A DNA stretch of 64,000 nt from Caenorhabditis elegans (Eukaryota > Nematoda > Chromadorea > Rhabditida > Rhabditidae): contig NC_003283.11 in the NCBI RefSeq assembly GCF_000002985.6, positions 18,229,501-18,293,500 of the forward strand, read 5' to 3'. Numbering within the stretch: the stretch's first letter is position 1; each line of letters opens with the position of its first letter. The translations under genes were made by a program, and so were the position numbers. Positions 1,601-50,355 of this stretch are shown one piece after another. The notes below the pieces were generated by a model. The model saw only the letters and a list, made by a program, of their open reading frames with translations, made no database searches and was not told the origin of the DNA.

Positions 1601-5064
<3,464 letters not shown>

Positions 5065-7215
5065 TCAGATGCACATTTGAATGGAAGTTAACACGTCGTC
5101 TTTTACCGATATCTCGAGTTTCTTTTCTTTGCCTTCCAACACCCATTTGTATTGTACAATCCCGTCAATGGTCTCTGATTTTGGAGGACACCCGATCGAA
5201 TGTATTAGGCTTTGCAAGTCGAAGTTGTTCGAAGTGGAGAGCTTGAAATTTCTTGAAAGTGAAGAAGCAAGGAGTTCCTGTAAAAATATTACATGACGGT
5301 GTTGGCTCACTGAATACTAAAAATTACCTGCGCCAAGAAGAGCACATCTCCAACTGGAATAGTCTCCACGTAAGCTGTCCCTTTCAAAAAATGAATCAAT
5401 TTTCGGATGGACACAGATGCATTCGCTCCTTTAACGACCAACTCAGTGGCATGGTTCCAGTGAGGGGTATCTCTTATTTGATTTAGCGCGAGGGCCTGAT
5501 TCCCATTGTTAACATCACCAACAGTCGCGAAGATCGTAAGTTTTCTCAATTTCTTCGCATCAAGGCAATCCAGAAGCTGAATAAACTCCAGCTCACTGCT
5601 CCCTTTCAGCTCCAAGTGGGCCATAGAAATCTTGTTCCTAAACGAGCCCAGGAAAATTCCAAGATTTTGCATTTTCTCCAAGGTGTATCTCTCGAAATCA
5701 CAATGGAACGTTTCAAAGCTAGGTTTTCGGTTGCTGAAGTTGTGCAGAGATTCTTGACGGTTCAGCCATTCCTTCAATAGGGCCATGTCGGTGCATGGCC
5801 TGGAAATTTCTTCACCATTGCAGAACATGTGAACTATAGCCGAATTTTCATCAAAATGAACATCCATTCTAATTGACCAGCAATGCAATCGGTCACCATC
5901 AAGGTAGATTCGTAGCCCCGTTGAGACGTCTCGGAGTGCCAGTCTGCAATCCAAAAAAAATGGGATGCAAAACTTGCATAATTGATTAGAATTGTTGAAA
6001 AAAAATTCTTCATGTAATTGTTATGGCTGGAGACGCTTTTTGAATTACTCCTTGATAAAACTTACACTGAGCTAAACGGGAGACTTTCCAAAATGTGTTC
6101 AATCACTGGTTGGTGTCCAGTTAATTTTACCAGGTCAAAGGTTGGGATTGAAGATGGATGGGTCTGTAAAAGATAGTTTTAAAAATTGATAAGAAGTGAT
6201 GATTTAGTCGATAATTACGTGGAAGACCTACAGTATGGTAGAATCCCAATGTCTCAATATTTCAGTCTAAAAAATGCGATTATTTAAACAAAATTCACCT
6301 CTTGCAGCATCTGAGCTGACGAAACCCGAGAAAATGTGAATGTCGAGATGTTTTCCAAAAAACCATGCGCCATGCTGATGTAAACGTTTTGATCCTGGCT
6401 GGGGAAAAACCATGTTTGGATGGACCGATTGGCATACACCGGAGCTCCGAATCCCAACAGTTCACAGGCCTGATTTCCATCGAAGGAGCCTTTAAGTACA
6501 AGCTTGCCAAACGAAGATCGAACGCAGTGCTACAAAATCAGAACTATTCATGCCAGATGTAAGTTTTAATACCTCTTTCAAAAATTCGAGGTCACGTCTA
6601 TCGTTTGTTTCCATGATGATGGAGGCATTTGACAATGCAGAGAGTCGTTCCAAAAATTTTGAATTTTTCCACTGCGCAATGCTGCTTGGTGTCTTCAGGT
6701 GTACTTCTTCAAGAGCATCGCGATTGAGCATGGCAACAAGCAAGACCACATGATCCTGAGACTGTTTTGATGGGATCGAAACGACGAACTCGTTAACTTT
6801 GAGTAAGTTCCTTCTCTTTTTAAGAATTAACTCAAGTATTCCTCTATAGAGGCAGTCACCGCTTGTCCCATCGATGATGCTCAAGCATGAAAGGGTATTC
6901 ACGGATGTTAGGAATGGCATCAAATGTTTCTCTGACAGATTGAAAAAGTCTCCGTTCGCAATCAACTCTTTTTTCTCATTCATTCCAAAAATGCAATCTT
7001 TTCCACTTTTTTGGTAGGAAATTTTTATGTTCTTCGTTGCTCCATTCCGGTAAACACCGTAGCTATGCAAAATGCGATGATCCTCAACTGTGACACAAAA
7101 TTTGACAACTGAAGAATTGTCGATTGTTGTCAGTGCCTCAGTCACAAGGGGAGATTGCCTGTAATAATTAAATAATTGAAGCTGTATTTCATTTCTGAAT
7201 CGATTAAACGCACAT
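5065..7215 (-). CDS. F-box/FTH (FOG-2 homology) protein with two FTH units
   Basis: Probable substrate adaptor of an SCF ubiquitin ligase, from the nematode F-box A/FTH (DUF38) family. Exons in gene order: 6573-7158, 6299-6529, 6066-6163, 5328-5943, 5065-5277, all phase-consistent. They encode a first FTH unit (typical FLKEV before an intron, then HCVRSSFGK and FTFSRVSS), then a short exon with F-box residues (VIEHILESLPFSSV followed by LALRDVSTGLRIYL), then a second FTH unit (LLDCLDAKKLRKLTI, HWNHATELVV, FLAQ). The start is uncertain. The best choice is an ATG split by an intron (AT at 7214-7215 joined to G at 7158), giving 581 residues. An alternative is two adjacent genes, but the paralog at 17308-19963 keeps the same exon order and phases, which favours one gene. 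The family assignment rests on recognised FTH patterning. Confidence 0.8.
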
Positions 7216-9491: not shown

Positions 9492-9929
9492 TTAAAGGTG
9501 AAGTAGCGCCAGTGGGGATTTTGTCTATATTCATTTATAATGATCCAAAACAAGTGAATATCATAATAAAACACTCCAAAAAATTTTAGATTTTTCATAA
9601 TTTCCGGTCAAAGTTTTGGCAAATTGCCTAAATTTTGAAAAATACGAGCTTTTGAGGAAATAAAAAAAAATGTTGCATGCTCCGACCCCTACAATGTTTT
9701 GATACAAATAATTTGAACAAAATTAAAACATGAAAAATGTCGAAAAAATAAATTTTTCTTGGTCGACTTCCAAAATTATGAGTGCCAAAAACTGAGTAAT
9801 TGTCACTTTTTGACAGTAAATAAAAAATTTTCAAAGTTTTTTTGAAAAATTTTATCATGATATTTGGTCATTTTGGGACCAAAGGAGTGGTTTTTGACAA
9901 TTTCCTTACTGGCGCTACTCCACCTTTAA
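9492..9929. mobile_element. TTAA-flanked palindromic MITE (AAAGGTGGAGTAGCGCC family)
   Basis: Ends read TTAAAGGTGAAGTAGCGCCA and its near complement GGCGCTACTCCACCTTTAA. Other members are at 28184-28801, 42753-43180, 49595-50019, 53742-54169 and 59234-59674. No coding capacity. This copy supplies the stop codon that ends the upstream exon of the disrupted F-box gene. Confidence 0.85.
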
Positions 9930-10339
9930 GAACTACCCACAACTTCATCAGAAAACGTCAGTTTATACGTATAATCGATCCCTGTTTTATAAGATTTGAG
10001 TTCATTATTCACAAAGTTTTCCAACGCTTGAATTTGGTGATGCTCAACAAACTTTGATAAATCGGTGATAGAGAATAACTGAAAAAAAAATTACTTTTCG
10101 CATTATGTGGGACAATATTTAAGTAATTTGCCAAAGCCCCCGTTTTTTTTTTAAATTTCAATTTGCCGCATACCTCTTATGTACAAATTTCCCAAAGGTA
10201 TTAGTACATTTGTCAAACAATGGCGAAATATATTGCCTATGTTTAGAGATGGTGAGGTCAACATTTTTACTGCTTTATTATACTCGAAAGAGGATCACCA
10301 GATTTGGTAAACTTTGGTAACTTTTGGTAAGCACTCGGC

Positions 10340-17307: not shown

Positions 17308-19963
17308 ATGCGTGATCAACACACTCATGATTACAGGTACTCCTCCATCGTGTCGTCGGCGTTGAGGGTCCTTCTCAATTCTCAAATTATTGGAGTAACC
17401 GTCAGAGTTCACGACTGTCGCATTTTGTTTGACTTTGTCGTTTTTCGAAACGGAGACCTAACTTTGTTGAAAATAGAATACGAGAAGGAAGCGTCTGGGT
17501 ACAGATTTAAGATGAATGGAAGAGCAGAACGGATTTGTAGTGGTGACTTCATGCGCTCATCTTTAGAGCACTTCAGACAATTTCTCAGCTCTGTGCATGT
17601 GTGCTCGAGTTTGTCGATCACCACAGGATCAAGCAGTCTCAACACTTTGTATCTGCATCATATCACAGAAATTCTCAGAAAAAGGGAGATCTTGCTTAAG
17701 GTGAACGAGTTCGTGCTGACGGTCCCGTCAAAAAATGGGCATGTCGCCTCGATTTTGTCCTTGCTAGATCCCGACGCTCTCTCTGCTGTTAAGCTGAATA
17801 CATCAGAAATGATGTCAGAGCAACTTCTAGATCAACTTTCTAAATTTCCTAACGCTTCTACGACCATTCAAGCCTCTGATCTCAGTGATCTTTTGTTTTT
17901 GAAAGAGGTTTGTTGTTTTTAAATGCATTTACCATTACCTGAATTTTTCTAGCACTGCGTTCGATTTTTATCCCCATTCGGAAAGTTCATACTCAAAGGA
18001 TCGTTTGATAAAAGTGATGCCTTTGAATTATTCGGTGATCCCATGAATACTGGAAGTTCTGCCCATCAATGGTTCTTCGCAAGCCAAGTAGATGGATATG
18101 ATGTTTGCATTGAGCAGATTGATTTGGAAGAAGGCTTGTCATTAACGTTTTCTCGGGTTCCTTCGACTGAGAAACTGAAAATGGTGAGTGATTTACATAT
18201 ATTATCGATTAAGAAAAAAAAAACTAACCTAGGTTCCATTTATCAAAGTAACATGGCACATAAAAATTAAGAATCAATATTTAACTAATACTTTCCAGAC
18301 ACTCTCATCTCCGAGACCTTCCATAAATCTGGTAACATTTGCTAAACACTACCCACCGATTATGACACCAATCGTTACTAACGCAACCTTCCCAACATTG
18401 TGAGTTTTAAAAGTGGAGTAGAGTCGAAATTTTTTTTTTTGCTTTAAATGACAGAAAATGGACCATAATAACCGAATATAACTATAAAAAAATTTAAAAA
18501 ATTTTCTAAATTTTTTATGATTTTTTCAATTTTGAGAAAATCAAAGAAACGGCTGACAAAATTTGAATTACCGCGCAAATGAGTGACGTCATTTTTGATG
18601 TTTTCTGGCTAAATTCGTCAGTTTTTCTCGATTTTTTTTTCTATATTTAATTTGAAACATTGTTTGTCAATTATGAAACCACTTTTCCGTAAAAAAACTT
18701 GAAAACCCTAAGGAAATCGCCAGAAATGTCAAAATTGGCCTAAAATCTGCAGTTTAATATTTATTATTAATTTTTTTCAAAATAACTATTTTAAATAATT
18801 GACAAACAATGTTTCAAATCAAATATAGAAGAAAAAATCAAGAAAATCGACGAATTTAGCCAGAAAACGCAAAAATATCAAAAATGACGTCACTTACTTG
18901 CGCTGTAATTCAAATTTCGTCAGCCGTTTCTTTGATTTTCTCAAAATTGAAAAAAATCATAAAAAATTTAGAAATTTTTTTAAAATTTTTTTTCAGTTAT
19001 ATTCGGTTATTAGGGTCCATTTTCTGTCATTTAAAGCAAAAAAATTTCGACTCTACACCACCTTTAAACAAGTTTTATAGCCCACCTCAAATATTCCCAT
19101 TGCAGATTGGCCCTCCGAGATGTATCCAGAGATCTTCGAACTTTCATCGATAGACATCATCTACATTATCATCCGATCAGAATGCACGTTTATTTTGACA
19201 CCGATTCTGCGATTGTTCGTATTTCCGGCGATGGCGACGAAGTCACTGGGAACTGCTCCGAGATTTCATCAAGCTGGCTGGAAAAGTATGGCGAAAATAT
19301 TCAATCGTTTTCTTGTGATTTTCACGGTTATTCTTCGCAAAAGATGCAAGAGCTGAAGAACTTCCTACACTCTTCCAAGAACAAGATTTCCATGGCCAGC
19401 TTGAAGCTGAAAGGGAATAGTGAGATAGATAGAGTTCATTGAGCTTTTGGATTGCCTCGATGAGAGAAAATTGAGAAAACTTACGATCTCTTCATCTGCT
19501 GATAACAACTGGAATCAGGTCCTTGTTCTTGACAAAATAACTGAGACAGGTCACTGGAAGCACGCTGTGGACTTGGTTTTAACAGGAGCCAATATTTTGG
19601 TTTCCATCCAACGTCTTCAACACTTTCTTAGAGTGAAGGCTTTCTTGGAGACTATTCCAGTTGAAGATGTGATCTTCTTGAAGAAGGTAGTTTTTTCTTG
19701 AAATTTTCGTGGGAGTTTTACATCGTATCATGCTTTTCCAGGCACTTCTTCCTTCTTCACTTCCCAGAAACTTCGAGCTCACTACTTCCGACAATTTCGA
19801 TTTGCAAAGCCTTTCGATTGGATGTCCAGCATCACGTGAAGGCGGACATCACAAATGGGTTTTCCAAGACGAGAAGGTCCTCGAAGTTACAGTTCATGAC
19901 TGGAAGGACGGAAAGACTCGCATCCAAATGCGTCATTTGAATGATAAATCTTTGGAATTTTGA
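17308..19963 (+). pseudogene. F-box/FTH paralog of the 5.1-7.2 kb gene, frameshifted
   Basis: Exons 17308-17907, 17953-18183, 18299-18399, 19106-19686 and 19742-19963 match the minus-strand gene at 5065-7215 in order and phase; exon 2 is 231 nt in both. It encodes an FTH unit (LLKVNEFVLTVPSK, LLFLKE, then FILKGSFDK and LTFSRVPS), a degenerate F-box linker, and a second FTH unit (LALRDVSRDLRTFIDR, LLDCLDERKLRKLTI, HWKHAVDLVL). Exon 4 has a tandem GATA duplication (19424-19431) that shifts the frame into a TGA near 19439; without the extra four bases exon phase would match the paralog. The intron before exon 4 carries a 660 bp MITE. It could still make a protein of about 420 residues with only the first FTH unit complete. 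Confidence 0.75.
18407..19067. mobile_element. TTAA-flanked palindromic MITE in an intron
   Basis: Ends read TTAAAAGTGGAGTAGAGTCG and CGACTCTACACCACCTTTAA. The long arms are mutually inverted, with AAATGACAGAAAATGGACC matched near the other end. It lies wholly within the third intron of the frameshifted F-box/FTH gene, so it need not affect splicing. Confidence 0.8.
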
Positions 19964-21490: not shown

Positions 21491-23764
21491 CTGCCATAAT
21501 CTGATTTTCAAGCATAATTCGCGCTGTTGCTGCTTCTGTAATTCACGTATACTTGAGACTGTATTTTCTATATTATGTCGTAAAGAATGTAGTACTTATT
21601 TTGTGGACGCCTATCCAGATGCAATAATATTAGAGCTCGCAAAACTATTATAGGCTGTCATACTAATTTTGAGCAACTTTCTCTGATGACCACAATTAAG
21701 GTATCACACATTTTCATTAAATGCAATAATAGAAATCGCCTTAAAATGACAAATGTTAAAACTTAAAAGTGAAAACTATCCAAAAGAAATGCGCAAATCT
21801 AATAGAAGAGCCTTACAATAATACACTAATTTTACAGTACACCTACACTAACCCTACAGTACTACAACAGAAACTCAAACACATAGTCCTACTAACCGCC
21901 TACCAATATCCCATAAAAAGCCTGAAATTCATTTTACTTAAACTACAGTATCACTACAGTACCCCAACTACACCTCCACTAACATACAAGCCATTTCCAC
22001 CTCAAAAAACAAAGCCTCGTTTTGCTTATAACTATATTAACCGTACGGTATTTCTACAATACTACTACAGTACTGAAGTAATCCTACCAAATACATTTTA
22101 AACTGCATAATAAGGGGGGGGGGGGTTCAAAAATCAAAGTTCAGAATTTAAAATAGATCATCTAATTGAAATTAATTTAATTTTTTTTTGAAAATGAAAT
22201 GTAACATTCAATTTTTAAAAACTACCTTTACAAGTTAAAGTTAATTTTCCCAACGACTTCTCTTCTAAATTCAGATTTCTGAATGTTAATGATTTTCCAG
22301 AATGTGATGGTGTTTTTAGTTAATTCCTAAGTATTACCACCTCAGTTATTCACTTAAATATTCTGTCTATCAAATAAGAGTTAGCAAGGTGGAAACTTTC
22401 CTTTTTTCCTCTACTGATTATATTCCTTTCCTCTAACCTGGCACAATTTTTACTGATAAGAAATATACGACAGAGAGTTGGATATTTTTTCTGATACATC
22501 TACTTTGAAGATGTATAAGTGATTCTCAGAAAACACGATTTATGTTCCAAATTTAACAAACGGCGTATTTAACCATTTCCGCAGTTTTTTCGTTCAAAAA
22601 ACTTATAAAAAACACTCCTAAATTATGTCAGTTATGAAATTTTACAAGTTATTCAAAATGGGTAGCCAGCAAACCGAATTAGGTATTTCCTAACTAAATT
22701 AGGATATGATTTAATTAATTGAAAAGTATTTTTATTTCAGTTATTTTATTTACCTGCTTATTTACCTGATTTGATGATGTTTCGAATTTGAACATCTTTG
22801 AATTCGAAGGATCAAGGTCTGAAACAAAAAAAAATTAGTTTAAAAATAATACAAAATTATTTGATACACCCATAAAATAGTTGTGAGGAAGACTATGCAA
22901 AGCGAATAGAATGGTATGGCGATGATGACTCCTTCTTATCAGTAGTACCTATGCATACGTCACAGCTCATTCAAACATAAAATTCGTACCTTTAAATGAC
23001 GGAGTACGCTATGAAACTTATGGCTCGCTGTTAATGGAACAGAGCTCCACCGGAACTGAATAGAACTAGAAAAATAGCAATTAGGATACTAAAATCTACC
23101 AATGATTTTAAGAATTCAAATTTCAGCGTGGGACGTTATTAATAAATTTTGAATTACTACCTTTGCTAGAATATTTGCGAATAGCTAGAAAACTACTATT
23201 GTCAGAACAATACAATTCCTAGGATACTATACTACCTTTTCTGAAAATTTTAAAACCTTGTACATTTTTTCATCTGATTATGTAGTTTGTAGTTTAGTAC
23301 TTCTGGTTAGATATTTTGAATAAAATGTTTAAGACTATTAAAAATTTTGGAAATTCTGTTTTTTTTTTTGAAAGAATAATAAAATGGAATTCGTTGAAAG
23401 TTTTGAAAATTACGTTTATTCAAAGTTTTACACTACAAGACAGGTTTCAGATAAAATTCGATTATTTTTAATTTAAAAATTAAAAACATTGCCTTGCACC
23501 CAATTAACTACACAACTCGCATAAACTATAAGCTTAATAAGTCAAGCTCAAATATAACAGTTCGTAGTCTATCACGTTGCTTCGAATTAAATAGTAAAAG
23601 CAAATTCCTCTGCTGGCAATAGTATTTCCACAATGTACGTTTACTTTATACTTGTTAAGAATGCTATCAATAAAATTAAAAGTATTGAAAACGAATTTAA
23701 AAAATTTCAGAAACAAACTCAACCCTACAACTGGTCTAAACTGATTGACGAAACAAAAAAAAAG

Positions 23765-24905
23765 ATGTGGATGTGTAAAGAGTAAGTTATTTTCAAAATT
23801 AAAAAAAAAACCTGTACCTACCTTAAGTCTTTGAAAAAAAAACATTTCTGCTTGAATATTCACCTAATTCCGAAACATTTCTTTCAGAAATTGTTCAGTT
23901 ACTTCATTGGCATTGAAAACTCTCCAACTTACTCAAGTCGTAGCAATTCGTACTACTTTGCAAGAAACTTCCATTTCGGCTAACTACGTGGTCTTCAAAG
24001 ATGGAAAACAATACCCTCAAGAGTTCATGTACAAGAGAACTGAAAACGGGTGCAATTTTGAGTTTGATGGGAAAGAGGAGATTTTCAAGAATCAAGACTA
24101 TCTGGCACTATTCTCTTCTCATTTAAAAACCATACTATTTCCTTACACAATTATCTCGCAGTAGTCCTTTACATTGGTTAACAATACCGTTGAATTGGGA
24201 GCTAGAGCTCTTGGAGCAATCAAGAATATTCTCACATCGAAAAAACCTTCGCTTAAAATCAATGAACTGATTTTCTCTTTCTCTGGTCAACCAATGCTTT
24301 CCCCTGCTATTGCAATAATTGAGTCTTTGGATTCAGGAGCTCTGAAATCAATTCACTTGAGCACCAATAAAGAGGAAGAAATGGATTTCGATATTCTCAT
24401 GAAGTTGCCTCATTGGAAGAACATCGAGATTCTGCTGATAAAGGGATTTATAGTTTCTGCACCAATTGAGCACTTTATCCATTTACCAGAAGTTACAATC
24501 ACAATGCAATCTATCACTATTCCAAATCTCAAGCTTTTGAAGAAGGTTAGTAGAATACAATTATCTTTTTTGCCAATAGAAAGATTATTTTTCAGCACTT
24601 CTTGGGATTGAAGTCTGAGAAGAAGTTTGTTCTCAAGTACAAGTTGGACGGCGGTGAGATCGCTAATAATGTCCATGCCGTGTTTGATCAGGCATCAAGC
24701 AGCTGCAAAGGAAGGGTCAAGCAATGGGTGTATCCAAAAAGTGGCAACATGCAATTTCGTGTTGAGTATCGTCAGCATCATGGCTTCAAGGATCATAAAT
24801 TTACTTTCCTGGCTACCCGAGATTTGCAAGTAAGGATATTTAATGGGATACTCAGAAAAAAACTGTTTTCAGGAGCAACAACTGACCTTATTGCCAATCG
24901 ACTGA
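23765..24905 (+). pseudogene. FTH-only paralog of the 13.1-14.2 kb gene, one nonsense codon
   Basis: Exons 23765-23781, 23888-24545, 24596-24829 and 24873-24905. The first three are exactly the same lengths as in the minus-strand paralog (17, 658 and 234 nt), with the same MWMCKE start. An in-frame TAG at 24162-24164 replaces a leucine codon (ISELSF in the paralog, ISQ then stop here). Otherwise the frame is open through LKINELIFSFSG, HWKNIEILLI and HFLGLKSEKKFVLKYKL to EQQLTLLPID. This is either a very young pseudogene or a gene with strain-dependent nonsense. About 240 bp of 3' flank is also duplicated. Confidence 0.8.
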
Positions 24906-25936
24906 TAGGACACAAATCATGTCTCAAGCATTTTGTTAACTTATGTATATTATCATAACCTCGTGTTCTACTTTATACATCCCGCTCTCCGTTTTCCCAG
25001 TGTGTGCCTTTGCAAAATATGTTAACATGTTTCTTTAATGACTCAGCCCTGATTTCACATGCAAACTATACCTCACATAAAACTACTTCAATACTTATAA
25101 ACAATTCAAGACATTGTTCTTTATATGCTAATTATTTAATCTCGAATATAAATACTTGTTCCCATTATAAATACTGTTCACACACAAAATTCTGAGCCGG
25201 AATCACAGTTAAAACGAATTTCTACATAAGCGGACCAATAGCGGCATCACTTTTCTCTATGTTTTTTGATCACCGCATCGTCATGCCGGCTTCAGAACTT
25301 ACATTCCAACACATATGTGCTCTTACATCAGTATTCACAAATTTTCTATTAATGCTCCTAATTCTCACCAAGTCGCCGTCACAATTGGGAACCTATAAGT
25401 GGCTCATGTTGTACACATGTCTATTTGAGCTGGCTTATTCCTCGCTGGACATTTTCGTAGAGCCGGTGAGTTTTGAGTAGTGTGTCAAAAGTTAAAAAGT
25501 ATGTAGAGTTTTTGCATTTTCAGACAATCCGATCATTTCAATCGGTTAGCTACGTTCTTCAACGTTTGAGAAGATCATTGTTTGGCCACGACGCTACATT
25601 CTTTTTTCTGAGTTAGTGAAGCTTACTTGTGATTAACCACTACGAAAACAAATTCAGTGGATTTTGCAGATTCTTCAAGCAAAACTACATAAGAGGTGCA
25701 AAACAAAGTCTTCTTTTTGTTGCCCCAGTCGTTACTGGGGTCGCTTGGGGACTTTTGAGCTGGCTAACTTTGAACGAAACTCCTTCGAAATCGGAGTTTT
25801 TAAAGTAAGATCGTAGATTCCTGAGTCTTGACGATAGAATTTTTTATTAAGTCATCAGACTCTAAATTGTCTGAAAACATCGAATTTCATAATGACACTT
25901 TTTGAAAACATTTTTTTTTACATTAAAATGTGACCT

Positions 25937-29509: not shown

Positions 29510-29740
29510 CGATCCGTTCTTCAAGTGCTATGCACTGCGGATCTGGGATTCAGGTACACTGCCTGGTGGTGATCCCATTTAAGCCACGTCCTAGCCGGGG
29601 ACTGCGGTCGATAATCCAGTCGTGGATTGCTCCACTTCCCAATAGAGGCTGGGTGAACCTAGTGGGGTGAGGCCGGACTTGAACTCGTGACCTCCAGATT
29701 GCTAGCGGCCACCACTACCGACTGAGCTATCTGCCCCCTA
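29510..29740 (-). mobile_element. tRNA-derived SINE-like element
   Basis: Read on the minus strand it begins GGGGGCAGATAGCTCAGTCG, with an A-box-like TAGCTCAGTCGG (29722-29733) and, about 45 bases on, a B-box-like GAGTTCAAGTCC (29674-29686), the spacing of an internal Pol III promoter. The acceptor and T stems do not pair well, so it is not a functional tRNA. A non-tRNA body of about 150 bp and an AT-rich 3' tail follow. No second copy is visible in the window. Confidence 0.55.
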
Positions 29741-29800
29741 ATAGAATAGACGAAGAATATATCTTTTAATTGCAATATATTCATTTAAACTGATTTAATC

Positions 29801-32800
29801 TCAATCGTCACGAATGGTTGCGTTTTGGGGAACATATGAAACTGGGATACGAAACATCTGAACATGAATCTTCCCGTTTTCCGTGTTAATTCTCAATAGC
29901 AAAACGTGCTCTAATGTGCCTATTAACTTGAAGAACCACTTCCGAACTTTGACCGCATCCTCGGTAACAAGCAGAGGCCGTCCAATAAGCTCGTACAAGT
30001 TCTCCATATCGAAATTTTCGCAAATGAAGAATAGTTTTATGGAAGTGGAAAGGGATTTCTGGAAAAATAATAAATTGTTAAATTGTCAAAGATAAACGTC
30101 CCACCTGCTTCATAAAAAGCAAGTTGTCCACTGTGAAGTTTTGCAGGCAAACTTTTTGGCTCTTGAAATTTCCGAACAATTGATTAAAGTTCAAGGGATC
30201 CGTGTTAAGCACGCACTCAGCCACCACGAACTCCTCTGCAGTTCTCCAGTGACCCGTCTCCGCTATTCGGGCGATCTCTAGTGTTCCTTCATCCTCTTCA
30301 GTGATTTTTGCAAAATCTAGTCTCAGAAGCTTCAACTTTCCGGCGTCGAAACACTCGAGAAGCTCTAAAATTTCCGACTCAGTCCTTCCGGCTAAGATTA
30401 AACATTTCACTTGAAGCTTGGAGCTCCGAATCAGAACTCGCTTTAGTTTTTCTTGCGCTTCTTCATGTTCGCCCGCAACCCAATAGTGAAAACTTCTCAG
30501 GCAATTCTTCTGATCCTTCAACACAAACTGAAGATCTCGCATCAAGTAGTTCAACGGGGTGTCATCTGTCAAATGATGCTCCCGGTAGTTCCGTGTGGCC
30601 CCGTCCGGAGTTAACTCGATGATATCAAGCCGACATCCTATTGGTTGCTTGTAGTAGACAAACAGTGTATGCGCGTTTGACTGGCGGATTCGAAGCTTGA
30701 GATCGTCAGAATTCAAGCTCACGGCAATATCATTTGTTTGGAATTTTGACTTGCTCCGGCTCCGATCAACGAAGTAGCGGAGGTCTTTGCAAACTTTGCG
30801 GAGGACTTCGCTGAAAAAAAAACAATTTTGGAAATTATTCCCAGTAATTGTTAACGCACACTGAGACAAAAGCGCAATTGTCGACAATATTCTTCATGAC
30901 CATCGGGAAGCAGGTGACGAGCCGCAGCATGTCAAATGGAGGGGCGTCTTCCTGTTTTTCCTGGAAAATTTTAAGTCAGTGTGCTTGCTTTTCTTTGTTT
31001 TGGAAGTCTAGCGGCCGACACTTTGGGAGTTTCACCAAAAAATTAGGCTAACTATTAGGCTATGACTTAGGCCTAGGCTTAGGCTTCGGAGACACGATCA
31101 GTCAGTCATTAAACAGCCATTCAGTAACTCACTCTTGTAAAAACATACGCAGGAATCCCTTCGGCTCCACAATGCTGATATCTGATCGCCAATCTATATT
31201 CTCTGTCATCCATAGGAAGATGCCAGTTTTTATGCCCAAACTCCTCACTTCCGTATTCCACGTTTGGTTCTCCGAAAATTTCTTGTGGTCGCCGTGCTTC
31301 CACATCATTTGAATCTTCATCTTCATAACCGTGAAAGTTGATAACCAGACAGAACTTAGTAGTTGAATACGTAAGATTCTCCTTCAACAAAGCCAATTGC
31401 TCAAAAGAAATCGTTGGCACCGTAACACTTGCAAGTGAAAAATTCTCGAAATTTTCCAATGCAGTTGAAAATACAAACGACGAAATGAGGAGCTCACTGG
31501 CACAGTGCCATTGATCCAGGCTCACAAGTAGGTCACAGTCCTCTGTTTCGATTACTGTACCGTGCAATGGCGTGTTGAGTGTTATTCTAACCAATGAGAA
31601 ATGATCGAAGTATGACAATAGAGATGCTGCGATTTTGATGTATGGTTGCTCAAAGAAACTAATCTTGAAGTTCCGAACTTTGAGTTGCCGACGTCGTGAG
31701 CGGAGCATCTCAACAAGATCTTCAAGACACCTTTTATCAATATACTCAGAGTCATCGCATAGATGGACTGAAAATTCTAAAATGACGTTTTGGCCCTCAA
31801 GAATCGTTTTTAAATGGGAAACCGCCAGCGAAACGAAATCCCGATTCCGAACCATTTCCCTTTGATGATCACATTGCAGCCGACAACCGTTCGGGTGGTG
31901 TTGATACTCATGGATCCGTGAAGATCGTTGACCTTGGAGAGTACAGTAAAGACCGACTGTTATACTGGTGCTATATAAAGATAAGCGGACTTCAGCAAGT
32001 TTGAAGGCTTTCGTGGTGTTCAAAGTTGATGGTAGAATCAGTGAATGGGTAGTGTATGAGCTGAAAATTTGAAAATACCTGGTTGCATTTTGTTGAGCAG
32101 AAGGAAACTTATAGAAATGTGATACTTACAGTGGTAATTCAATGGGTTGGTTGGTAAATTCGTGACGTTGATGTTCCTGAAAATATCTGAAATTAGATAT
32201 GCACTTTGGATCCAGAACAGAAATGCGCGCTGGTAGCGCTGGTAAAAATGTTTTTGAAATTCGATTATTTTGAAGAAATTGTTGCAATTTTGCCCAAATT
32301 TGTCGGTTGGCCGTACCAGCCGCGCATCCCTGATTCAGAAATCAGATATTCTATTTTGTGGTACTACTGCCGAGCTCTTGTAGTACTACTGCGGATGCAT
32401 CTATAAACTCGTGGATTTCTCTCCTTGAACTTGTGATCTATTTCGTACCTAGTGCCAACTAACACTTAATGCTCATTCTTTTACAACCAACCTCAACCCT
32501 TTCCACCACACGCTCAAAACTGAATGATTGACCCATCGGGACACACGGGCGGTATTCAATAAGTAGATCAAATTTGGGACCAGGAATCCGAATACGCCAT
32601 TCCATAAGATCATCTTGAATGCGATCAGGTGTTCCAAATTCTTCAAGTAGGTTCTTTGCATTAACATGCTCCTCTTTCGAACGATTGTCGTTGATAGTAA
32701 ACTTGAACGGCGTTGGGGATCCAAGGAGGTGCTGAAATACATAATAGCTGTGAGACCTTAGATAAAATCTAGATAAGAGTACCTCTTTTAAATAAACCAG

Positions 32801-35800
32801 ATCCTCGACTGAAAAATCTTGTAATGTCACTGCTACTTTTGAAAATTTGCTCAATAGTTTGATGGGGATGGATAACAAAAATGATTCTGCTTTGAGCTCC
32901 TTCGTTTTTGTGAAATTTATTTCTGACAACTCCAATTTTGTGTCTTCTATGGAAGTTTTCAATTCGACGACCTCCGGAGAAAGTAGTTCCAATATAGAGT
33001 AGACCTGGTCACTTGGGGATTGCATATTCAAGTTTAGCCTGAAGTTTCTGACATGAAGCATTTGCTTTCGCTGCTTAAGATTTTCCACTAATTTTGTTAA
33101 GCAGCATCCGAAAACTGTTTCATTCGAGTTATTGGGGTCATCGTCTGATCTTGACGGGGATATCTCTTCAGACTCTATTAGCAAAGTGTCAATACTCTCC
33201 ACCGTCTCCAGCACCATATTCAAGTCCTCACAAGAAACTGTCACATAATCCTCGTCGATTACTATCTTGTGAACGTCAAACTCGAGCAGACACCCTTCAC
33301 GGTGATTTTTGTACACGATGTTCTTCCGATAGCTAGTCAGTTCTGAGGAGTAGCTGAACATGATCCGGACCTGGTCCTCTGCAGTGTGAACTTCTAGGGA
33401 GTGGTTTTTGTAAGTTGCAAGGCACTTGATGAATGCCGAGAGTATTTGAGAACGACTGGGGGATGAGCTGGAAGAGAATGCAATTTGTTCCATTACAATA
33501 TGTTTCCTATTGGTATGGCAAGAATCGCGAACAGAGTGTTCCAGTCCATGTTCGTTTTTTTTTGCGCATCGGCCTTGAAATTATTGCTTTCTTGGAAAAG
33601 CGGGCGGTCTGAGGAACGGGTGACGGTGTGGGTGCCATAAAAATAAAGAACATACGGTAATCAAAATCTTACTTGATCCATTCCATCTCAGCCGCCAATT
33701 TTCTTGAGAACACGAATGTGCCATACTCCCGAGGACGACAGAATTTGTGCTTGACCAGAAAACAATTATCTTGATTTGAAATTGCTATGCACCATGTTCG
33801 ATCACATTGCTTTGCACTCTCATAGCTTTCGTGAGCTGGAGGACCGAATAGCTCTAGAAGTTTTTGAGCAACGTTGATATTGTCCTCTGAGGAACGGAGA
33901 TATTGAAGCTTAATCTGCCGCGGGGTATTTGAAGTCAGGAAGTGCTGAAATTTTACATATTTGCCAGTTGTGCAATTATTACACACCTCTTTCAGAAATG
34001 AAAGATCCTCAAAAGAAATCGGTTCGGATATAATTGTGGCACACGAAAAGTGCTTGAAATTCTCCCAACTCTTACTTGACAACTTTAGGGTAGTGTTACA
34101 CATTGCTACCGAAATTGCTCGTTTCCATTGCTCTAAGCCCGCAATATCTTCCAGTTCCATAGCAATTGTGTGAGGTGCTGTGTGGATCGCTATATTTTCA
34201 AGGGTTCCTGGTTGGAAGTACGAGAGCACTGAGGTGATGTAATCAGTGATCAGAGGGTGACGGTTGAAAGATATACAGCAGCCATCGGCTTTTAGAGAAT
34301 TTGATGGGATAGTTTTGTTGAGGCGGTTCATAAACTCTGCATCGCAGGATTCTTCATTAAATCCAAATGAAAAAGATTCAAAAGTCGTCAAATTATCCAG
34401 TAGGTACTTCAAATGTGTCAGAAAAAGAGACATATGATCTAGATTCACAGTCAATGAAGTTCTTCTTTCAGAGACAACTGCCGAGCATCCAGTTTCTAGA
34501 CTCTTGTACTCGAAGTTTTCCACTTTTTTTTCCGCGGTATTCTTGTCAGTATACGTAAAATAAATTAGAATTGAGTCATTCCGAATTACCAGTAAGGCAT
34601 TAGTCTCCTGGCCATTTCTTTCTAGTAGATCAATCGTGTGTGAGTGATAATTGTGCACAGTTTGGCTGAAAAGGAACTTATGATTATGAAGTTATTTAGA
34701 TGATGGCAGAAACGGCGTAAGATCTACCATTAAAGCATCCAAATTGTTCGAACCACAGTGCGGGCAGTAACTATTCTAATTCAATGTATTATTAATGTAT
34801 TATGAACCATGTCCTCAGTTGCAAACGTCGTCATACAAAACTTCTACGACTTTAAAGGGAGGCGCATGGTCTCGACACGCGCGGCAATTTTATTAAAAAT
34901 TTTTGATGTGTCCGCCTTTAATATTACTGTATTAATTTTGCTCGGAAATCTTCATCGATTTTTCTCATTTTCTTCCAATTTCCCGTTTTAATTGTTTCTT
35001 TCCCAACTTTCTGCATTTTATTTGTTTAATATCTAATTATTTTGCATAATAAATGTTTTTTGTACTGAATATGTGTTTTTTTAATTCAAAGGCATAATAC
35101 AGTATTTTTAAAGGCACACACATCAAAAGTTTTAATTAAATCGCCGCGCATGTCGAGACCATCGCGCGTTAATGCGCCCCCTTTAATGTCGTAGAAGTGG
35201 AAAATATACGCACTGTAAGTTTTTCGCAGTTTTCAGAGGGCAAACATTATGAGATATAACTGAGGTACACGGAGACCTTTTTTGTTTTTTTTTCAATCAG
35301 CCAAAGTCGGGAACCAATATCAGCCGCCGACATTTCACGAGTTTCGTGTCCCCACATGTTTAACATGGCAGCGCACCACGCCATGAAGGTAAAACGCTAA
35401 GGGCGTGGCGCGGAACTCGTGAGATGTCGGCGGTTGATATTGGTTGGAGCCTCATTTTGGCGTCATTCCAGAAAACGCCCGAAATCTCACTCATAGATCT
35501 GCTTCACCGATGGTGGTTCTCGCGTAAAGATGATCGACGAATTTCCAGATCTCCGTAAAAACAACTGTATTGAAATATCATGCTCCGTATCCATCACTCT
35601 AAACTTGTAAATTTTGTCTTCTTCTTTGTACTCCACATTGACGGGCTTTCCAAAAATTGTGTCTAATCCCATCTCGTAAATGTCACTGATCATTGGTTGC
35701 TCATCGAATTTCCGATAGCTAATGAGGAATTCACGTGCGTTCGGAGATTCGAGGAAATGCTGTAATTTGTACTTTTTAGACAGAAGTTGATTAAGAACTA

Positions 35801-36864
35801 AAAATAAACTGACCTCTTTCAGGAAAACCATGTCATCAAAGTTTATCGAGTAGAAAATACACGAAACACTTGAAAAATGTGAGATCTCCTCTACAGGTTG
35901 ACAGGAAAACTTGTGAGCGTGACTGAGGTACAACGAATCGATATCCACTACTCTGGCCGATTTCCAAATGTTTGTTTCAACAATTTTGTTGAAATCGTAC
36001 TTCATGTCCTCATCACAATTTGCTTTCAACACTAGAACTTTTGCCTCCACGTGTTGTAGAATCGGCTCAATCGAGTTGTTTAAGGTGACCCCGTGGAAAT
36101 GCACCGAGAACCTTTTCAGTTTCACATTTTGGTTTCGGGATTCCATCATTTCACTCAATTCTTTTAGAAACAACATTTCAGTGTGCTCGTCAGTCGTTTC
36201 CGATATCAGCCTTGCTCTCAGATCACAAATAAACTGTATTGATATATAAGAAACCGGGATTTTTGATGCAAATATCGAGTGTAAATGCCTCATGAAGACA
36301 AAAAAGTAGTCAAAGTTATCGATCAACTCTTTTTTGTTGTCAGAAACAATCCAACCATCCTCTTGATAGACTATCGTGACCCTGGAAGGGGTACTCCTGG
36401 TGTAGATAGTCAAACGGATTGTGCATATTGAAACTGTGATTCGGATTCCGATTCTCGTAGAGTTTTGCAGGCGTTTTAGGGTAGAGGTTAAAATTTTGGA
36501 GTGAGCGAGGGCGCGACTGAAAATTTTCTGGGTTTTTGGGGCTATCTATTAAGAAACTTTTAAAAAAATTCTCTGATTTTCTATTTGCGCTTGAAATCGC
36601 GATTTTCATTTGCGTCCCTATGAGTTGTTTTAGATGCGTGCCTAAATAAATTCTCATTGGAGCGCGTTTGCCTCTTTTAATTTTCTCCATATATTTTTTA
36701 CTTTATTCACGTGGTGTTGGAGTGTCTCATTGCGATTTGATCTAGAAAAAATGCGGGAATTTTTCCCCAGGAAAATGTGACGTTCCCACATTTCAAGCCA
36801 ATACTCACGTTTTCCGTTCAAACCGAAACAATAACTGGGACAGTCTTCGAAATAAATTGTCCAT
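29801..36864 (-). CDS. Very long multi-FTH protein with one F-box (1647 aa model)
   Basis: Twelve exons join with all phases matching: 36809-36864, 35814-36516, 35491-35759, 33987-34665, 33673-33944, 32783-33467, 32492-32731, 32130-32176, 31133-32060, 30860-30960, 30105-30810, 29801-30058 (4944 nt). Five FTH-type units follow one another (about residues 19-343, 343-660, 660-968, 984-1293, 1327-1647). A single F-box exon (FPMVMKNIVDNCAFVSV then EVLRKVCKDLRYFVDR) precedes the last unit. Units repeat SFLKE or DLVYLKE before an intron and HFL or HLLGSP after it. The junctions 35491/34665 and 33673/33467 use GTGAGA and GTAAGA donors one or two bases before in-frame stops, so separate shorter genes remain possible. 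The start (MDNLFRRLSQ at 36864) is my choice. Presumed SCF substrate adaptor or multivalent binder; function unknown. Confidence 0.6.
34754..35217. mobile_element. TA-type inverted-repeat MITE
   Basis: Ends CACAGTGCGGGC and ATACGCACTGTA. Inner arms CTTCTACGACTTTAAAGGGA and its counterpart CCCTTTAATGTCGTAGAAG are followed by GGTCTCGACACGCGCGGC and GCCGCGCATGTCGAGACC. It sits in the long gap between FTH units 1 and 2 of the multi-FTH locus. Confidence 0.75.
35305..35450. mobile_element. Small palindromic MITE
   Basis: Left arm AACCAATATCAGCCGCCGAC, right arm GTCGGCGGTTGATATTGGTT, with about 75 bp between. It lies in the same intron as the neighbouring MITE. Confidence 0.8.
36580..36780. repeat. 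Dispersed GGAGCGCGTTTGCC repeat fragment
   Basis: TTGAAATCGCGATTTTCATT and TTGGAGCGCGTTTGCCTC are shared with 46815-46915 and, inverted, with 47090-47190. Next to it is a GATTTGATCTAGAAAAAATG fragment of the family at 42045-42155. This explains the open frame over the interval. Confidence 0.7.
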
Positions 36865-37791: not shown

Positions 37792-39344
37792 TCAATTCAT
37801 ATCTTCTCGTCGTTTATAGATAACCACGGTACAGTCTGAACCAACAGCGATGATCTCAATATGAAAACCCCCAAATTGAATCGGTCGGGGTGCAATTGAA
37901 ATATCAAAGGCTGGATTGAAAAACTGGCCGATCTCAATTAAATTATAATGCATAAAGTTGAGAACTGCAACTTCAAATGTGCTAGATTCCATGAGAATCT
38001 GTTAAATATATGTGTAGTTGGAATATGATTGTTCTAAGCTTACATCTCGAATTTTGATCAACTCCTCTGTTGTCAGTATAACCAACCTGACGATGCAGCT
38101 TGTCAAGTGCAAGAAGCTATCAATAGGGATGTTCATAAAGATATCGCCTATCACATCAAACTTTTCCAGATGTTTCCATTGCTCCAATTCCACAATATTC
38201 TGAAGTGGGACTGTATCCGGACGAGATCGAAGTACGAACTGATATGGTTTGGTGAACCTAATTGAGACTTCTTTCAGAGTACCAGATTTTGTTAATCGTA
38301 CTATCGAAACTATTTCCTCACAGCGAATGTCGATGAATTGCAGGCTGGTGACCAACAATGGACTCACTTTTGCCAGCTCGATAGGAATGCTCTCGGAGCC
38401 CGCGAAAAGTACACCCCAGGCTTGCTGAGTCTCGGTGATAACCAGAGTGTCAAGTGTGAAAAATGGGCTTTTGAGAATACTCGACAGCGTCATGATGGCC
38501 AAGCTCAGGTTATTTGATTTTTCCATTGCTCCGCCATTTTCCACGAGACGCCCGTTTTCATAAAGACCAACTATAGAGTCTGTACGATTCAGAAAGGTGT
38601 AGATCATTGAATGAGTGGGGGATAACGTTAGGATGGTGTTGAAGTATCCCGCGGAAAGAGTGATCGTCTTGAAGTTCCAGTCCAGGGAGTCGATGGCGTT
38701 GCGGAACACGCTGCAGACACGGCGGAAGGGGAATCTAGAATTCGGGCAAGTTTTGGCGTGTTTTTGAAGCTTGGTTCAGAATTTTGTTGCCGAAAATTCT
38801 TGTTCGTAGGCCTGCTACAATTTAAACGCGCAATTTCAGCAGGATAGATCATAGGGCTCAAAGTGCGCTGCTCACCGTTCAATCGGCTCAATTTCCATCA
38901 AAATCTTCCGTACAATCTCAACCGGCATGGTCGAGAGCTGAAGAGCATTCGGATCAAACCTGCAGCATCAATATTAAGAGAGATATTCAAAAAATTAACC
39001 AACTTCTCTCCACTGTCCAGCTCCAATTCCCCCTTTCCAAGCTTATGAAAGAAGTAGTCGAACTCTCTGATGTTCATAAACTCCTCTCCAAGTACTTCGG
39101 ACAAGGCTTCGTAAGCTTCAAAGACATCGTTTCCCTTTGCATACTCCAAAAGCATGCAGCCACGAAGGGCAATCTTGCTGGCGAGCAAGCGTTCTGCAGG
39201 GGTCGGAAGCTTCTGCTCGAGTTGTGGTGTTTTGTCCAATAGATTTGAAGCTTCAACGGCCTCTTGTTTTAGCCCAGGTTCTGGATTTTGCGAGTCTTGG
39301 TCAATTCCAGCTGCCAAGAAATCGGATTCATTTGACTTTTCCAT
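37792..39344 (-). CDS. F-box A family protein: HTH-48, F-box, FTH (434 aa)
   Basis: Likely SCF substrate adaptor. Exons in gene order: 39000-39344, 38876-38937, 38044-38734, 37792-37998; 1305 nt, all phases agree. Residues about 59-112 (LRGCMLLEYAKGNDVFEAYE, EFDYFFHKLGKGELELD) match the Mos1-transposase-type HTH-48 domain often found at the N-terminus of these proteins. The F-box follows (STMPVEIVRKILMEIEPIER then FPFRRVCSVFRNAID). The FTH domain fills the C-terminal half (VELEQWKHLEKFDVIG, PIDSFLHLTSC). For exon 2 I chose the CTCTTCAG acceptor at 38938 because it keeps the frame; the earlier CTGCAG acceptor leads to a stop. It appears intact. A SKP1-like gene lies 0.8 kb upstream on the same strand. 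Confidence 0.85.
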
Positions 39345-40115
39345 TATTCTGCAAAAATTCAGTTTTCCAGTAAAAAAAATTTACAAAAGAGCTAAATCAT
39401 GATATTCAAGCACAACATTGAAACTGATCATCTTGTCATAATTTCGAAAAGGTGGCGTAGTTATAGCAACAGACGAGTAACAATAGGCTCAGTGGAGACG
39501 CAGCTTGTCCTTTCTGACTGATATATCACTTGATGCCAATCTTCTTCCACTCATTAGTATGTTTTCCAGTGTACATAATATCATGTTTTTTGAAAAAATA
39601 ACGGGATTGATAAAAGTGCAGACCACTTCCAAATGACATAGGTTTTATTCGGAAGTTTGAGGAAGTTTAATAATAAACTGAAATACTTACGAGGAAAATA
39701 CTTAAGGTCATTTTTAGACTTCAAAACATAACCGATGCCCACGGCCCAAGAAATGGTACATGTACGCAATTTGTCTACCGTATATCTGGACGTTTGGGCG
39801 CGTTTTTCTCAAAAACAGGAGGTCCAACATTTTTGTGATTTATATACAAAATTTTCGAAAATGAATTAAACATTTTTTGGACTAAAGCTTTTTCCTTAAA
39901 CCGTGCCCACGCCTGGCTAAACTATAATTATTAGTAGAGCGCGTTTACACTGATGTACCCTTTGCTGGACCGTGATGCCATTTATTTCAATTTTTAATAT
40001 TACATTTTAATTTAAATATTAATTTCATATTAATATTAAAATTTATTACAATTTATTATAAGAAAAAAACATGATTGAACGAGTTAATAACCAATTATCA
40101 TGGCCATGGTCAAAG
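39345..40115. other. Intergenic
   Basis: Upstream region of the HTH/F-box/FTH gene and 3' region of the skr-like gene. I see no further gene or repeat. Confidence 0.5.
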
Positions 40116-40659
40116 TCATGACCAATTATCTGATCGATCTTCTGCACTCGAATGTTTGTTTGAAACGCCAAACCTAGCACGAATTTGACTTGGAGTATTA
40201 TTCTTCATCATATTAGCAATAAATTGTGTTGTGACATCAAAAAGATTTTCGATATTCAAATAATTTGCAGCCTGGAAAACAGGTTACATAAACTTTAACA
40301 GTTCCAAAATATCTACTAACCAACACCAAATCGAATAATGTATTCTGGTCAAGTTTAAGAAACTCGGAATCCCATTCACCAATCTCTCCATTGAGTAGGG
40401 GTCTTGGGGTACCTTGGTGCTCACAGTATTCGATTATTTTTTCGAAAATCTTCGCGTCGACTTTTGTTAATGGAATTGCATCCATTTCCGGCTGATACGT
40501 TTGAAGAAAGTCTGTTAGGACTTTTGATTCATTAGCTACTCTTGGAGAGACCTGAGGAAATAGAACTGTGTTTGAAATCAATATAGAAAAGTTTAAACTC
40601 ACAATAAACTCTATTCCATCGCAAGTTGAAATTTTGAGAGCGTGCTCCTAATTGCTCAT
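40116..40659 (-). CDS. SKP1-related (skr) protein, with an in-frame TAG near the start
   Basis: SKP1 links cullin to F-box proteins in SCF ligases. Exons 40603-40659, 40321-40551 and 40116-40271 encode a recognisable SKP1 fold: N-terminal ALKISTCDGIEFI, a BTB/POZ-like region (AIPLTKVDAKIFEKIIEYCE), then WDSEFLKLDQNTLFDLVL and the F-box-binding C-terminal helices (AANYLNIENLFDVTTQFIAN, NNTPSQIRARFG). The only nearby ATG (40657-40659) is followed three codons later by TAG (40648-40650). Either the true start lies in an upstream exon joined at CAATTAG, or this is a pseudogene with a single early lesion. The remaining frame is open to TGA at 40116. It lies just upstream of an F-box gene on the same strand. 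Confidence 0.7.
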
Positions 40660-42155: not shown

Positions 42156-42752
42156 GGGACAGCGCGTGCAGATGTGAGCTCATAATTTCTATTCTAGAAT
42201 TGCAGAGTATATTTCCAAGAAGTGTTCAATTTAAAAATTGAAGAATGTGCGTATCTTGCATTTCACTTTTGGCCTGTTAATAGTGACGGTGAAACTCGCC
42301 CTGATCTAATGTCATTTTCGTGTGCTGGTGTGATGTTTCTAATACTTGTGAGTTGGTTTTGAGTATTCTCCTACTTCACAGGATTCCCTTCAGGGGTCTT
42401 CATTTGCTAGTGTAATTTATTTCGCCATCAGGTGCTATCAATACATATCAAACCAGCTTGGAACCCTACCAACACAGTCACAAGCTCTCAAGTCACTTCA
42501 AGTTCAACTCTTCTACTCTCTAATCTTGCAATCCGCAATTCCATCTTTTTTAATGTATTTACCTGCTACCATCGTCTACATTGTTCCAATGCTGAACTTT
42601 GGCTACAACGTGGAGTTTCCGCTTCTTTCGGTTACTATTGCAATCTACCCGGCAATTGATCCACTTCCAACGATGTTTATAATTACGACCTATAGAAGGG
42701 GGTTGATTGACATGCTTCGTTGTCGGAAGAAGAATAACATTGCAGCTAGTTC

Positions 42753-43180
42753 TTAAAGGTGGAGTAGCGCCAGTGGGGAAATTGTTAAAGATCACTCCTT
42801 TGGTCCCAAAATGACTAAATATCGTGAAAAAACTTTTCAAAAATTTTTTGAAAATTTTTTATTTACTGTCAAAAAGTGGCAATTACTCAGTTTTTGCCAC
42901 TCGTAATTTTGGAAGTCGACCAAAAATTTTTTTTTTTCGACATTGTTTGAATTATTTGTATTAAAACATTGTAGGGGTCGAATCATGCGGAATTTCTTTA
43001 AATTTCCTCAAAAGCTCATACTTTTCAAAATTTTGGCAATTTGCCAAAACTTTGACCGGAAATCTTGAAAAATCTAAAAATTTTTGTATTTTTTGGAGTG
43101 TTTTATTATGATATTCGGTTGTTTTGGATCATTATAAGTGCATTTAGACAAAATCCTCACTGGCGCTACTCCACCTTTAA
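42753..43180. mobile_element. TTAA-flanked palindromic MITE
   Basis: Starts TTAAAGGTGGAGTAGCGCCA and ends TGGCGCTACTCCACCTTTAA. The left TTAA contains the stop codon of the chemoreceptor pseudogene. Same family as 9492-9929. Confidence 0.85.
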
Positions 43181-43388
43181 CTAATAAAACTCCATGTCAA
43201 ATATTGATTCTTCTGTTTTCTTCTACTTTTCCGTACTTTCTGAAAATTATTAGTTTTTACCTCAAATGTTTTTTATGATCTGCAAGTTTTCGAACACCTT
43301 TTCTAATGATTATTACGAAACTCTGTAAACTGTAACAAAATTTTATTTCAAAAAAAAAACATATGGAATTTTTTTCAAACAGGAGCAG

Positions 43389-48817: not shown

Positions 48818-48910
48818 AAAAAATGTTGGTGGGAAATTTACTTTTATTGAGAAAACATTTTTGGTGGGAAATTCAAAATTCTCCAGGAATTTCAAATAAT
48901 TTTTTTGCAG

Positions 48911-49173
48911 GTCTCTTCAAAAGTAATTAATCAATCAAAACTCCTAACCGACGTGCTTTACATTTATCAGCAAGACACGGACGTACTTCCTTTATCAAAA
49001 GTCGACGCAAAGACTTTCGAAAAAGTGATCGAATACTGTGAGCATCATGAAGATGAGGAATGGGATTCCGAGCTTTTTATAGTCGATCAGAAAACTTTAA
49101 TCGATTTGGTTTTGGTAAGTTGATTTTTTTTTCATCTTTCCCAAAACTTCCCAAATTTCAGGCTGATAATTGA
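48911..49173 (+). pseudogene. Truncated SKP1-related (skr) fragment
   Basis: One exon (48911-49114) aligns with exon 2 of the skr-like gene at 40.3 kb: LPLSKVDAKTFEKVIEYCEH, then WDSELFIVDQKTLIDLVL, flanked by TTTGCAG and GTAAGT. The next exon begins at 49162 with Ala-Asp-Asn and then TGA, where the other gene reads AANYLNI, so the F-box-binding helices are lost. No counterpart of the first exon (ISTCDGIEF) is seen upstream. A dead duplicate, inverted relative to the other skr locus. Confidence 0.75.
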
Positions 49174-49594: not shown

Positions 49595-50019
49595 AACAAT
49601 CCTAAAATGAATGCACTTATAACAATCCAAAAAAACCAAATATCATAATAAAACACTCCAAAAAATTTTAGATTTTTCATAATTTCCGGTCAAAGTTTTG
49701 GCTGCCAAAAATTGCCAAAATTTTGAAAAATACGAGCTTTTGAGGAAATTTAAGGAAATGTCGTATATTTCGACCCCTACATTGTTTTAATACAAATAAT
49801 TTAAACAAAATTGAAACATAAAAAATGTCGAAAACAATTTTTATTTTGGTCGACTTCCAAAATTATGAGTGGCAAAAACTGAATAATTGTAACTTTCTTT
49901 TTGGCAGTGAATAAAAAATTTTAAAATTTTTTTGAAAAGTTTTATCATGATATTTGGTCATTTTGGGACCATAATAGTGGTTTTCCACAATTTCCCCACT
50001 GGCGCTACCCCACCTTTAA
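49595..50019. mobile_element. Palindromic MITE, left end truncated
   Basis: The right end TGGCGCTACCCCACCTTTAA and the interior (ATTTCCGGTCAAAGTTTTGG, GGTCGACTTCCAAAATTATG) match 9492-9929, but the left AAAGGTGG end is missing or replaced by a repeated AAAATGAATGCACTTATAAC. Confidence 0.75.
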
Positions 50020-50355
50020 GTGGTTCATGTATTATTCGAAAGTCTATGGACGAGTTCAAATACTTCCTATTCCAATGACGAATAGTTCCTGTACTCAGAT
50101 AAAAAACTTCACAGAGAAATCTCTGACCATTAGTTATCATTTGTGATCTTCAAGATACATCATCTTTATCATAGACAGAACTATCCGGTTCTATCCAAAA
50201 ATGTCACTACAAAACACGAATCTGACCGTTGTGAAACCAAGAGACCAATTATTATCAAAATATCTGTCAAGCAAAAAACAGATCAGTTCCCTGAACTGGA
50301 AAACTTAACTTGTATCTGAAAAAAAATGTTTCAGAAAACTTTGAATGAACTGAGA
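50018..50355. repeat. Dispersed repeat, copy 2 of 3
   Basis: Shares GAACTATCCGGTTCTATCCA and GTGAAACCAAGAGACCAATT with 48505-48817 and 52463-52750. It begins beside the MITE right end. Confidence 0.8.

Follow-up and report, generated by a model that had tools for sequence, protein, structure and literature searches.

In the Caenorhabditis F-box A1 group (fbxa/FTR), members such as FOG-2 are described, in three publications (PMC539060, PMC8665587 and PMC12062965), as having an N-terminal F-box followed by an FTH/DUF38 domain, and members of the F-box A2 group carry a Mos1-type helix-turn-helix (HTH), an F-box and an FTH domain. The locus analysed here, array I, lies on the minus strand (36864-29801; chromosome V 18,259,301-18,266,364) of a 64,000-nucleotide stretch of Caenorhabditis elegans DNA (NC_003283.11; C5:18229501-18293500), hereafter the window, and the genome searched for relatives comprised 100,286,401 bases in 7 contigs. 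Array I has in common with F-box A1 genes the FTH domain and a further intron inside it, and a phase-2 intron interrupts its F-box, as it does in L003, the one ordinary gene compared. It differs in having five FTH units (U1 to U5) with the F-box before the last, and array-type units group in a clade of their own, separate from 20 ordinary FTH units. Like F-box A2, it combines an F-box and FTH with an extra N-terminal part, but this part is more FTH and not HTH. The HTH_48 profile (Mos1-type HTH) gave no match in the joined protein, and the U1-U4 part gave FTH and one sub-threshold hit alone. No description of multi-FTH chains was found in the literature searched, which is not proof of absence.

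Array I is rather likely to be a single 12-exon gene whose 1647-residue product, FTH-FTH-FTH-FTH-(F-box)-FTH, would act as a multivalent adaptor of the Skp1-cullin-F-box (SCF) ubiquitin ligase. As the initial annotation had claimed, the 12 exons (56, 703, 269, 679, 272, 685, 240, 47, 928, 101, 706 and 258 nt in order) can be joined with all phases compatible, giving 4944 nt, that is 1647 codons plus a stop, without internal stops. The units are built from up to three exons: a, an F-box half or its remnant, which exits in phase 2; b, ~700 nt long and running from phase 2 to phase 0; and c, of ~260 nt. They are laid out as a-b-c in U1 and U5, b-c in U2 and U3, and a plus a fused b+c in U4. All five long FTH exons (b) start in phase 2, which bears out the proposal that the units begin in one phase, and two junction types were observed, with U1 to U2 and U2 to U3 entering exon b directly in phase 2, and U3 to U4 and U4 to U5 entering the small exon a in phase 0.

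Relatives in the window were obtained from scans with profiles of the five units, and those elsewhere from a genome search with the protein of relative II (units Z and W), which gave at least 28 matches, the window's own among them; these counts are lower bounds, and more five-unit arrays may exist. The closest copies are VI (C5:17,278,736-17,285,265, 1 Mb from array I), with five units ordered as in array I, and VII (C5:17,499,415-17,505,007), with U2 to U5 and no U1 match in the stretch read. The features of array I are as follows.

36809..36864, minus strand: U1 exon a, start codon and 18 residues, phase 0 to 2; same 56-nt length, start and donor in VI
35814..36516, minus strand: U1 exon b, FTH, phase 2 to 0; FTH match and phase-compatible join
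35491..35759, minus strand: U1 exon c, donor GA/GTGAGA overlapping TGA; VI keeps REPPSVKQ and a GA/GTGAGT donor
34666..35490, minus strand: U1/U2 intron, 825 bp, with inverted-repeat elements at 34840-35198 and 35312-35445
33987..34665, minus strand: U2 exon b, FTH, phase 2 to 0, without an in-frame start
33673..33944, minus strand: U2 exon c, terminal donor AA/GTAAGA
32783..33467, minus strand: U3 exon b, FTH, phase 2 to 0
32492..32731, minus strand: U3 exon c, phase 0 to 0
32130..32176, minus strand: U4 exon a (U4a), 47-nt linker, phase 0 to 2, no F-box match; length and phase kept in VI, length congruent modulo 3 in VII
31133..32060, minus strand: U4 exon b+c, FTH, phase 2 to 0, with a predicted fold; the b/c intron is absent in array I and present in VI
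30860..30960, minus strand: U5 exon a, first half of the internal F-box, phase 0 to 2; ratio of nonsynonymous to synonymous substitution rates (dN/dS) 0.12 against VI and 0.10 against VII
30105..30810, minus strand: U5 exon b, second F-box half and FTH
29801..30058, minus strand: U5 exon c, carrying the stop codon; AATGAA at 29785

The FTH profile (PF01827) passed its 22-bit cut-off in all five units (36.6, 56.6, 41.0, 56.3 and 47.7 bits), and the profile search on the joined protein, proposed earlier as a check, gave 180.8 bits in four stretches for the U1-U4 part. Splice sites were scored with approximate matrices. On this scale the four boundary acceptors rank between the 97.0 and 99.7 percentiles among AG sites of the window's minus strand, and the boundary donors of U2, U3 and U4 at the 98.7, 98.9 and 96.8 percentiles of its GT sites. 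The donors near the stop score 7.8 in U2, 6.5 in U4 and 7.9 in U3 (at -30), the U1 donor is weak (3.7), and the terminal units U5 (-0.8) and W (2.2) have no strong end donor. In a control of 40 FTH gene ends genome-wide (two of them near-copies), in which the first in-frame stop past the FTH match served as the gene's stop, a donor of at least 6.3 was found in 0/40 between -12 and +2 of the stop and in 1/40 between -30 and +3, indicating that the end donors of U2, U3 and U4 are more than chance. The initial annotation had placed every donor one or two bases before a stop; this applies to U1 and U2, but the distance is 9 bases in U4 and 30 bases in U3.

Upstream of the b exons of array I, in-frame ATG codons were found for U3 (33493) and U5 (30930) and none for U2 and U4. 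Alternative first exons (an ATG with a right-phase donor above 2.5) were absent from the U2/U3, U3/U4a, U4a/U4b and U4/U5 gaps, and five weak ones occur in the U1/U2 gap of 825 bp. A test for five poly(A) hexamers found none in the U2/U3, U3/U4 and U4/U5 gaps, and two AATAAA lie in the U1/U2 gap, inside the inverted-repeat element at 34840-35198. Miniature inverted-repeat transposable elements (MITEs) had been claimed for both big gaps: MITE-like inverted repeats were found in the 825-bp U1/U2 gap, but the 315-bp gap has only a 14-base pair at its edges. No inverted repeats were found by the same type of search in the stretches with the 205-, 172- and 292-bp gaps. The U4/U5 intron (window 30961-31132, minus strand) holds telomere-like GCCTAA repeats.

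The strongest indication of a single gene comes from the paralogous copies. The inter-unit spacers of VI are 370 bp (U1/U2), 46 bp (U2/U3), 567 bp (U3/U4a) and 58 bp (U4/U5), with splice sites at both ends of the 46- and 58-bp spacers, and those of VII are 302 bp (U2/U3) and 58 bp (U4/U5, before the F-box exon). Spacers of 46 or 58 bp are implausibly short for a 3' end followed by a new start, which argues for one gene. The 302-bp spacer of VII resembles, by eye, the U2/U3 intron enlarged by insertion of a palindromic element. Array I and VI are 65-80% alike in blocks that lie within exons or end ~10 bases from exon edges; two of the blocks cross short b/c introns and none crosses an inter-unit gap. 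With the fused U4 exon of array I split at an arbitrary point, 12 of 13 exon lengths agree modulo 3 between VI and array I, U3b of VI included despite two frame breaks whose lengths cancel (by eye). Junction donors, acceptors and exon lengths are kept between array I and its copies, and together with the short spacers and the lack of an upstream in-frame start in U2 and U4 they support the earlier claim of a single gene.

A division of array I into two genes, namely an F-box-less four-FTH protein (U1-U4) and an ordinary F-box/FTH gene U5 starting at the ATG at 30930 with a trans-splice acceptor at 30960, would find its place at the U4/U5 gap. The ATG of U5 exon a sits 30 nt past a strong acceptor and is retained in VI, the 172-bp gap would presumably suit an operon spacer, and ordinary F-box/FTH genes are described with the layout of U5. 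However, the same gap is only 58 bp in both VI and VII, the start-codon candidate reads ATT in VII, and I, VI and VII all have the same PPFD immediately upstream of it. Nor does the gap in array I hold a hexamer of the kind tested, and the F-box exon of relative II has no in-frame ATG. Such a division is considered very unlikely.

Several points weigh against reading array I as one gene with an internal F-box. The Pfam F-box profile does span U5 exons a and b, so the F-box claimed in the initial annotation finds a match, but this reaches 13.5 bits and falls below the cut-off of 20.5; moreover, the profile had no match in VI or VII, though two other relatives pass the cut-off. The U1/U2 and U3/U4 gaps are long, U4a has an in-frame ATG in VI and VII (absent in array I), and VI is broken in frame in U1b and U3b and VII in U4b, so that both sisters of array I are damaged.

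The long gaps and the ATG of U4a count toward a chain broken at a longer gap, with U1 as a short gene of its own (IYE stop), or with U1-U3 and U4-U5 as two products, where alternative splicing or read-through may yield both forms. Besides the length, the two AATAAA, the five weak alternative first exons and the weak donor at U1/U2, the U3/U4 gap of VI (567 bp) contains an AATAAA, and an F-box-less single FTH gene (unit X) exists nearby. On the other hand, in none of I, VI and VII does the U2 exon have an in-frame ATG ahead of its codon 55, and U4b has no upstream in-frame start in I and VI, although VI has one 15 codons in. VI also retains the U1 donor together with the residues that precede it, and the ATG-less U4a of array I is conserved as listed above (47 nt and phase in VI, length modulo 3 in VII). 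Poly(A) hexamers were found neither in the U1/U2 gap of VI nor in the U3/U4 gap of array I. A broken chain is regarded as unlikely, and support for the U1/U2 and U3/U4 junctions is weaker than for the other two.

The frame breaks bear on a further alternative, a dead array in which duplicated F-box/FTH exons still look open and give no protein product. In its favour, VI and VII carry frame-breaking changes, and relative III and unit Z'' of relative IV carry lesions. Array I is the sole intact five-unit copy found among relatives drawn from the Z-W protein search. Against it stand the 1647 codons of array I, open over 12 exons, and the substitution pattern. The dN/dS is 0.23 between I and VI (bootstrap 0.19-0.28; 1174 codons, 11 exons) and 0.26 between I and VII (0.18-0.32; 662 codons, 6 exons), the counts leaving out U1b and U3b of VI (frame-broken) and U1, U4b/c, U5b and U5c of VII. 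Single exons gave 0.10-0.35 where a value was obtained (U4a against VI yielded none), with the lowest values in F-box exon a, and such pairwise ratios mirror past as well as present constraint. Of the alternatives weighed, a dead array is held to be the least probable, and one intact gene is the preferred reading.

An arrangement of the same kind was observed in other relatives. The F-box follows four FTH units in the best model of array I and is not N-terminal with a single C-terminal FTH, and an F-box-position exon lies between FTH units at no fewer than nine places (I, II, III, two in IV, VI, VII, VIII and IX). Among nine F-box-position exons, the Pfam profile was above its cut-off in two (VIII and IX), below it in two and unmatched in five, which were named from position and likeness. 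An F-box in U1, U4a or exon a of Y''-W3 (relative IV) was considered and rejected, with no Pfam F-box match. The relatives in the window with an F-box-position exon are listed below.

6573..7158, minus strand: relative II, unit Z exon b, akin to F-box-less units
6299..6529, minus strand: relative II, unit Z exon c, phase 0 donor
6066..6163, minus strand: relative II, internal F-box exon a, phase 0 to 2, no in-frame ATG; F-box 16.3 bits, below cut-off
5065..5943, minus strand: relative II, unit W, FTH, exons b (5943-5328) and c (5277-5065)
17337..19963, plus strand: relative III, units Z'-W', exon phases the same as far as W' exon b, where a frameshift occurs

The 135-bp gap before the F-box exon of array II contains no ATG, though exon c of Z does, a few codons ahead of its donor. 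Between Z-W and Z'-W', compared over W' exon b up to the frameshift only and without W' exon c, dN/dS is 0.32 (0.20-0.45; 402 codons), with a synonymous rate (dS) of 1.48, so that synonymous sites are near saturation. Relative IV (C5:17.62 Mb) contains Z''-W'', with an in-frame stop in Z'', and Y''-W3, in which 44 bp without an ATG separate FTH exon c from the next module. Relatives VIII (C5:17,594,757-17,598,647) and IX (C5:17,371,932-17,376,475) each have two FTH units and then an F-box unit, the F-box scoring 25.9 bits in both, above the Pfam cut-off, with phases again 0 and then 2. They are less telling on fusion because of the gaps between FTH exon c and the F-box exon (501 bp in VIII, 761 bp in IX). 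In IX, a 44-nt exon of phase 0 to 2 that resembles U4a lies between the first and second units, 92 bp past the first.

Some further FTH loci were recorded alongside these. X (12754-14374, minus strand) and X' (23609-25244, plus strand) are single F-box-less FTH units forming a 79%-alike inverted duplication; X' carries an in-frame TAG at 24162-24164, and in both, by eye, the donor at the FTH exon end seems to be used to add a short last exon. At window 8825-9313 (minus strand), after FTH unit Y, two exons encode a good F-box (33 bits), soon followed by a stop, as in a decayed F-box module. On C3, an FTH gene at L049:1665-3209 contains a tandem duplication of 773 bp whose copies are 100% identical, a fresh doubling of an FTH unit. 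Ordinary tandem F-box/FTH genes were considered as an explanation of the close spacing and rejected, the two loci read with the closest FTH hits being this perfect duplication in L049 and decayed fragments in L050, neither of them a chain like array I.

In a tree of 17 units of array type and 20 ordinary units, the 17 stand apart on one side (100/98). U5 groups with the F-box-following W, W' and W'' (96/92), with W3 outside on a long branch, and U1-U4 group with the F-box-less X, Y and Z types (85/62, an open fork). Because the tree splits these types, F-box-less and F-box-following units were probably distinct before the loci separated. The initial annotation had explained the units by repeated duplication of one exon block inside the gene. 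This is partly right, but the tree split and the small a exons that persist in front of U4 and of the second unit in array IX fit a fusion of tandem a-b-c modules at least equally well. Under such a fusion, tandem F-box/FTH genes (a, F-box half; b, F-box rest and FTH; c, FTH end) would have been spliced together, the last exon of one module gaining a donor at its stop or shortly ahead of it and joining exon a, or directly exon b, of the next; upstream F-boxes would then have decayed to short linkers or vanished.

The predicted fold of U4, the only unit modelled, may be a leucine-rich-repeat (LRR)-like arc. Comparison with LRR folds gave middling Z values, Foldseek gave no match at E 0.001, and the sequence search against solved structures gave a single match, to ribonuclease inhibitor (LRR), at E 0.12. 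As LRR-type F-box proteins for comparison we take Skp2, COI1 and TIR1, and entry 4i6j, presumably FBXL3.

Directly upstream of array I, window 38002-39380 (minus strand) is probably an F-box A2-type gene, with HTH_48 at 54.4 bits (38901-39380), FTH (38002-38775) and, at 11.0 bits, a very weak F-box. Two Skp1-family open frames (Skp1_POZ) lie ~3 and 12 kb from the F-box array, at 40240-40647 (minus strand, 38.7 bits) and 48851-49120 (plus strand, 33.7 bits). Just past array I, a sequence that by eye is transfer RNA (tRNA)-like, with an extended tail (29640-29740, minus strand), is possibly a tRNA-derived repeat; Rfam and tRNA (ARAGORN) searches gave no match in the window, this sequence included. 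A ~430-bp repeat occurs five times, 82-87% alike (9492-9930, 42750-43185, 49610-50020, 53742-54169 and 59233-59674), and a long CA/TG microsatellite lies at 3970-4160. Small signal-peptide-like proteins of the MNFIV..ANFGF type are encoded at 61344-61667 and 62994-63263 (plus strand), and a similar one just upstream of array VI, near 17286400 on C5.

The F-box gene families of nematodes are very large and change fast, and their members are described as adaptors that pair a single F-box with a single substrate domain. In the protein of array I, the remaining F-box would bind a Skp1-related protein and the five FTH modules would hold substrates, making it a multivalent or multi-substrate SCF adaptor. 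More tentatively, and with considerable doubt, array I and its relatives could represent an adaptor class of naturally polymerised F-box/FTH chains, with one F-box per two to five substrate-binding arcs, formed by splicing tandem genes. Chain adaptors may bind repetitive or multimeric targets (e.g., pathogen surfaces) by avidity, or several different targets together. Surveys for N-terminal F-boxes above a profile cut-off would, it is suggested, miss internal, weak F-boxes, and array I offers concrete, testable junctions in a model animal. If the one-gene reading is true, five substrate domains per F-box would alter the assumed stoichiometry of these adaptors, and tandem gene families could become multi-domain proteins via a splice donor gained at the stop codon.

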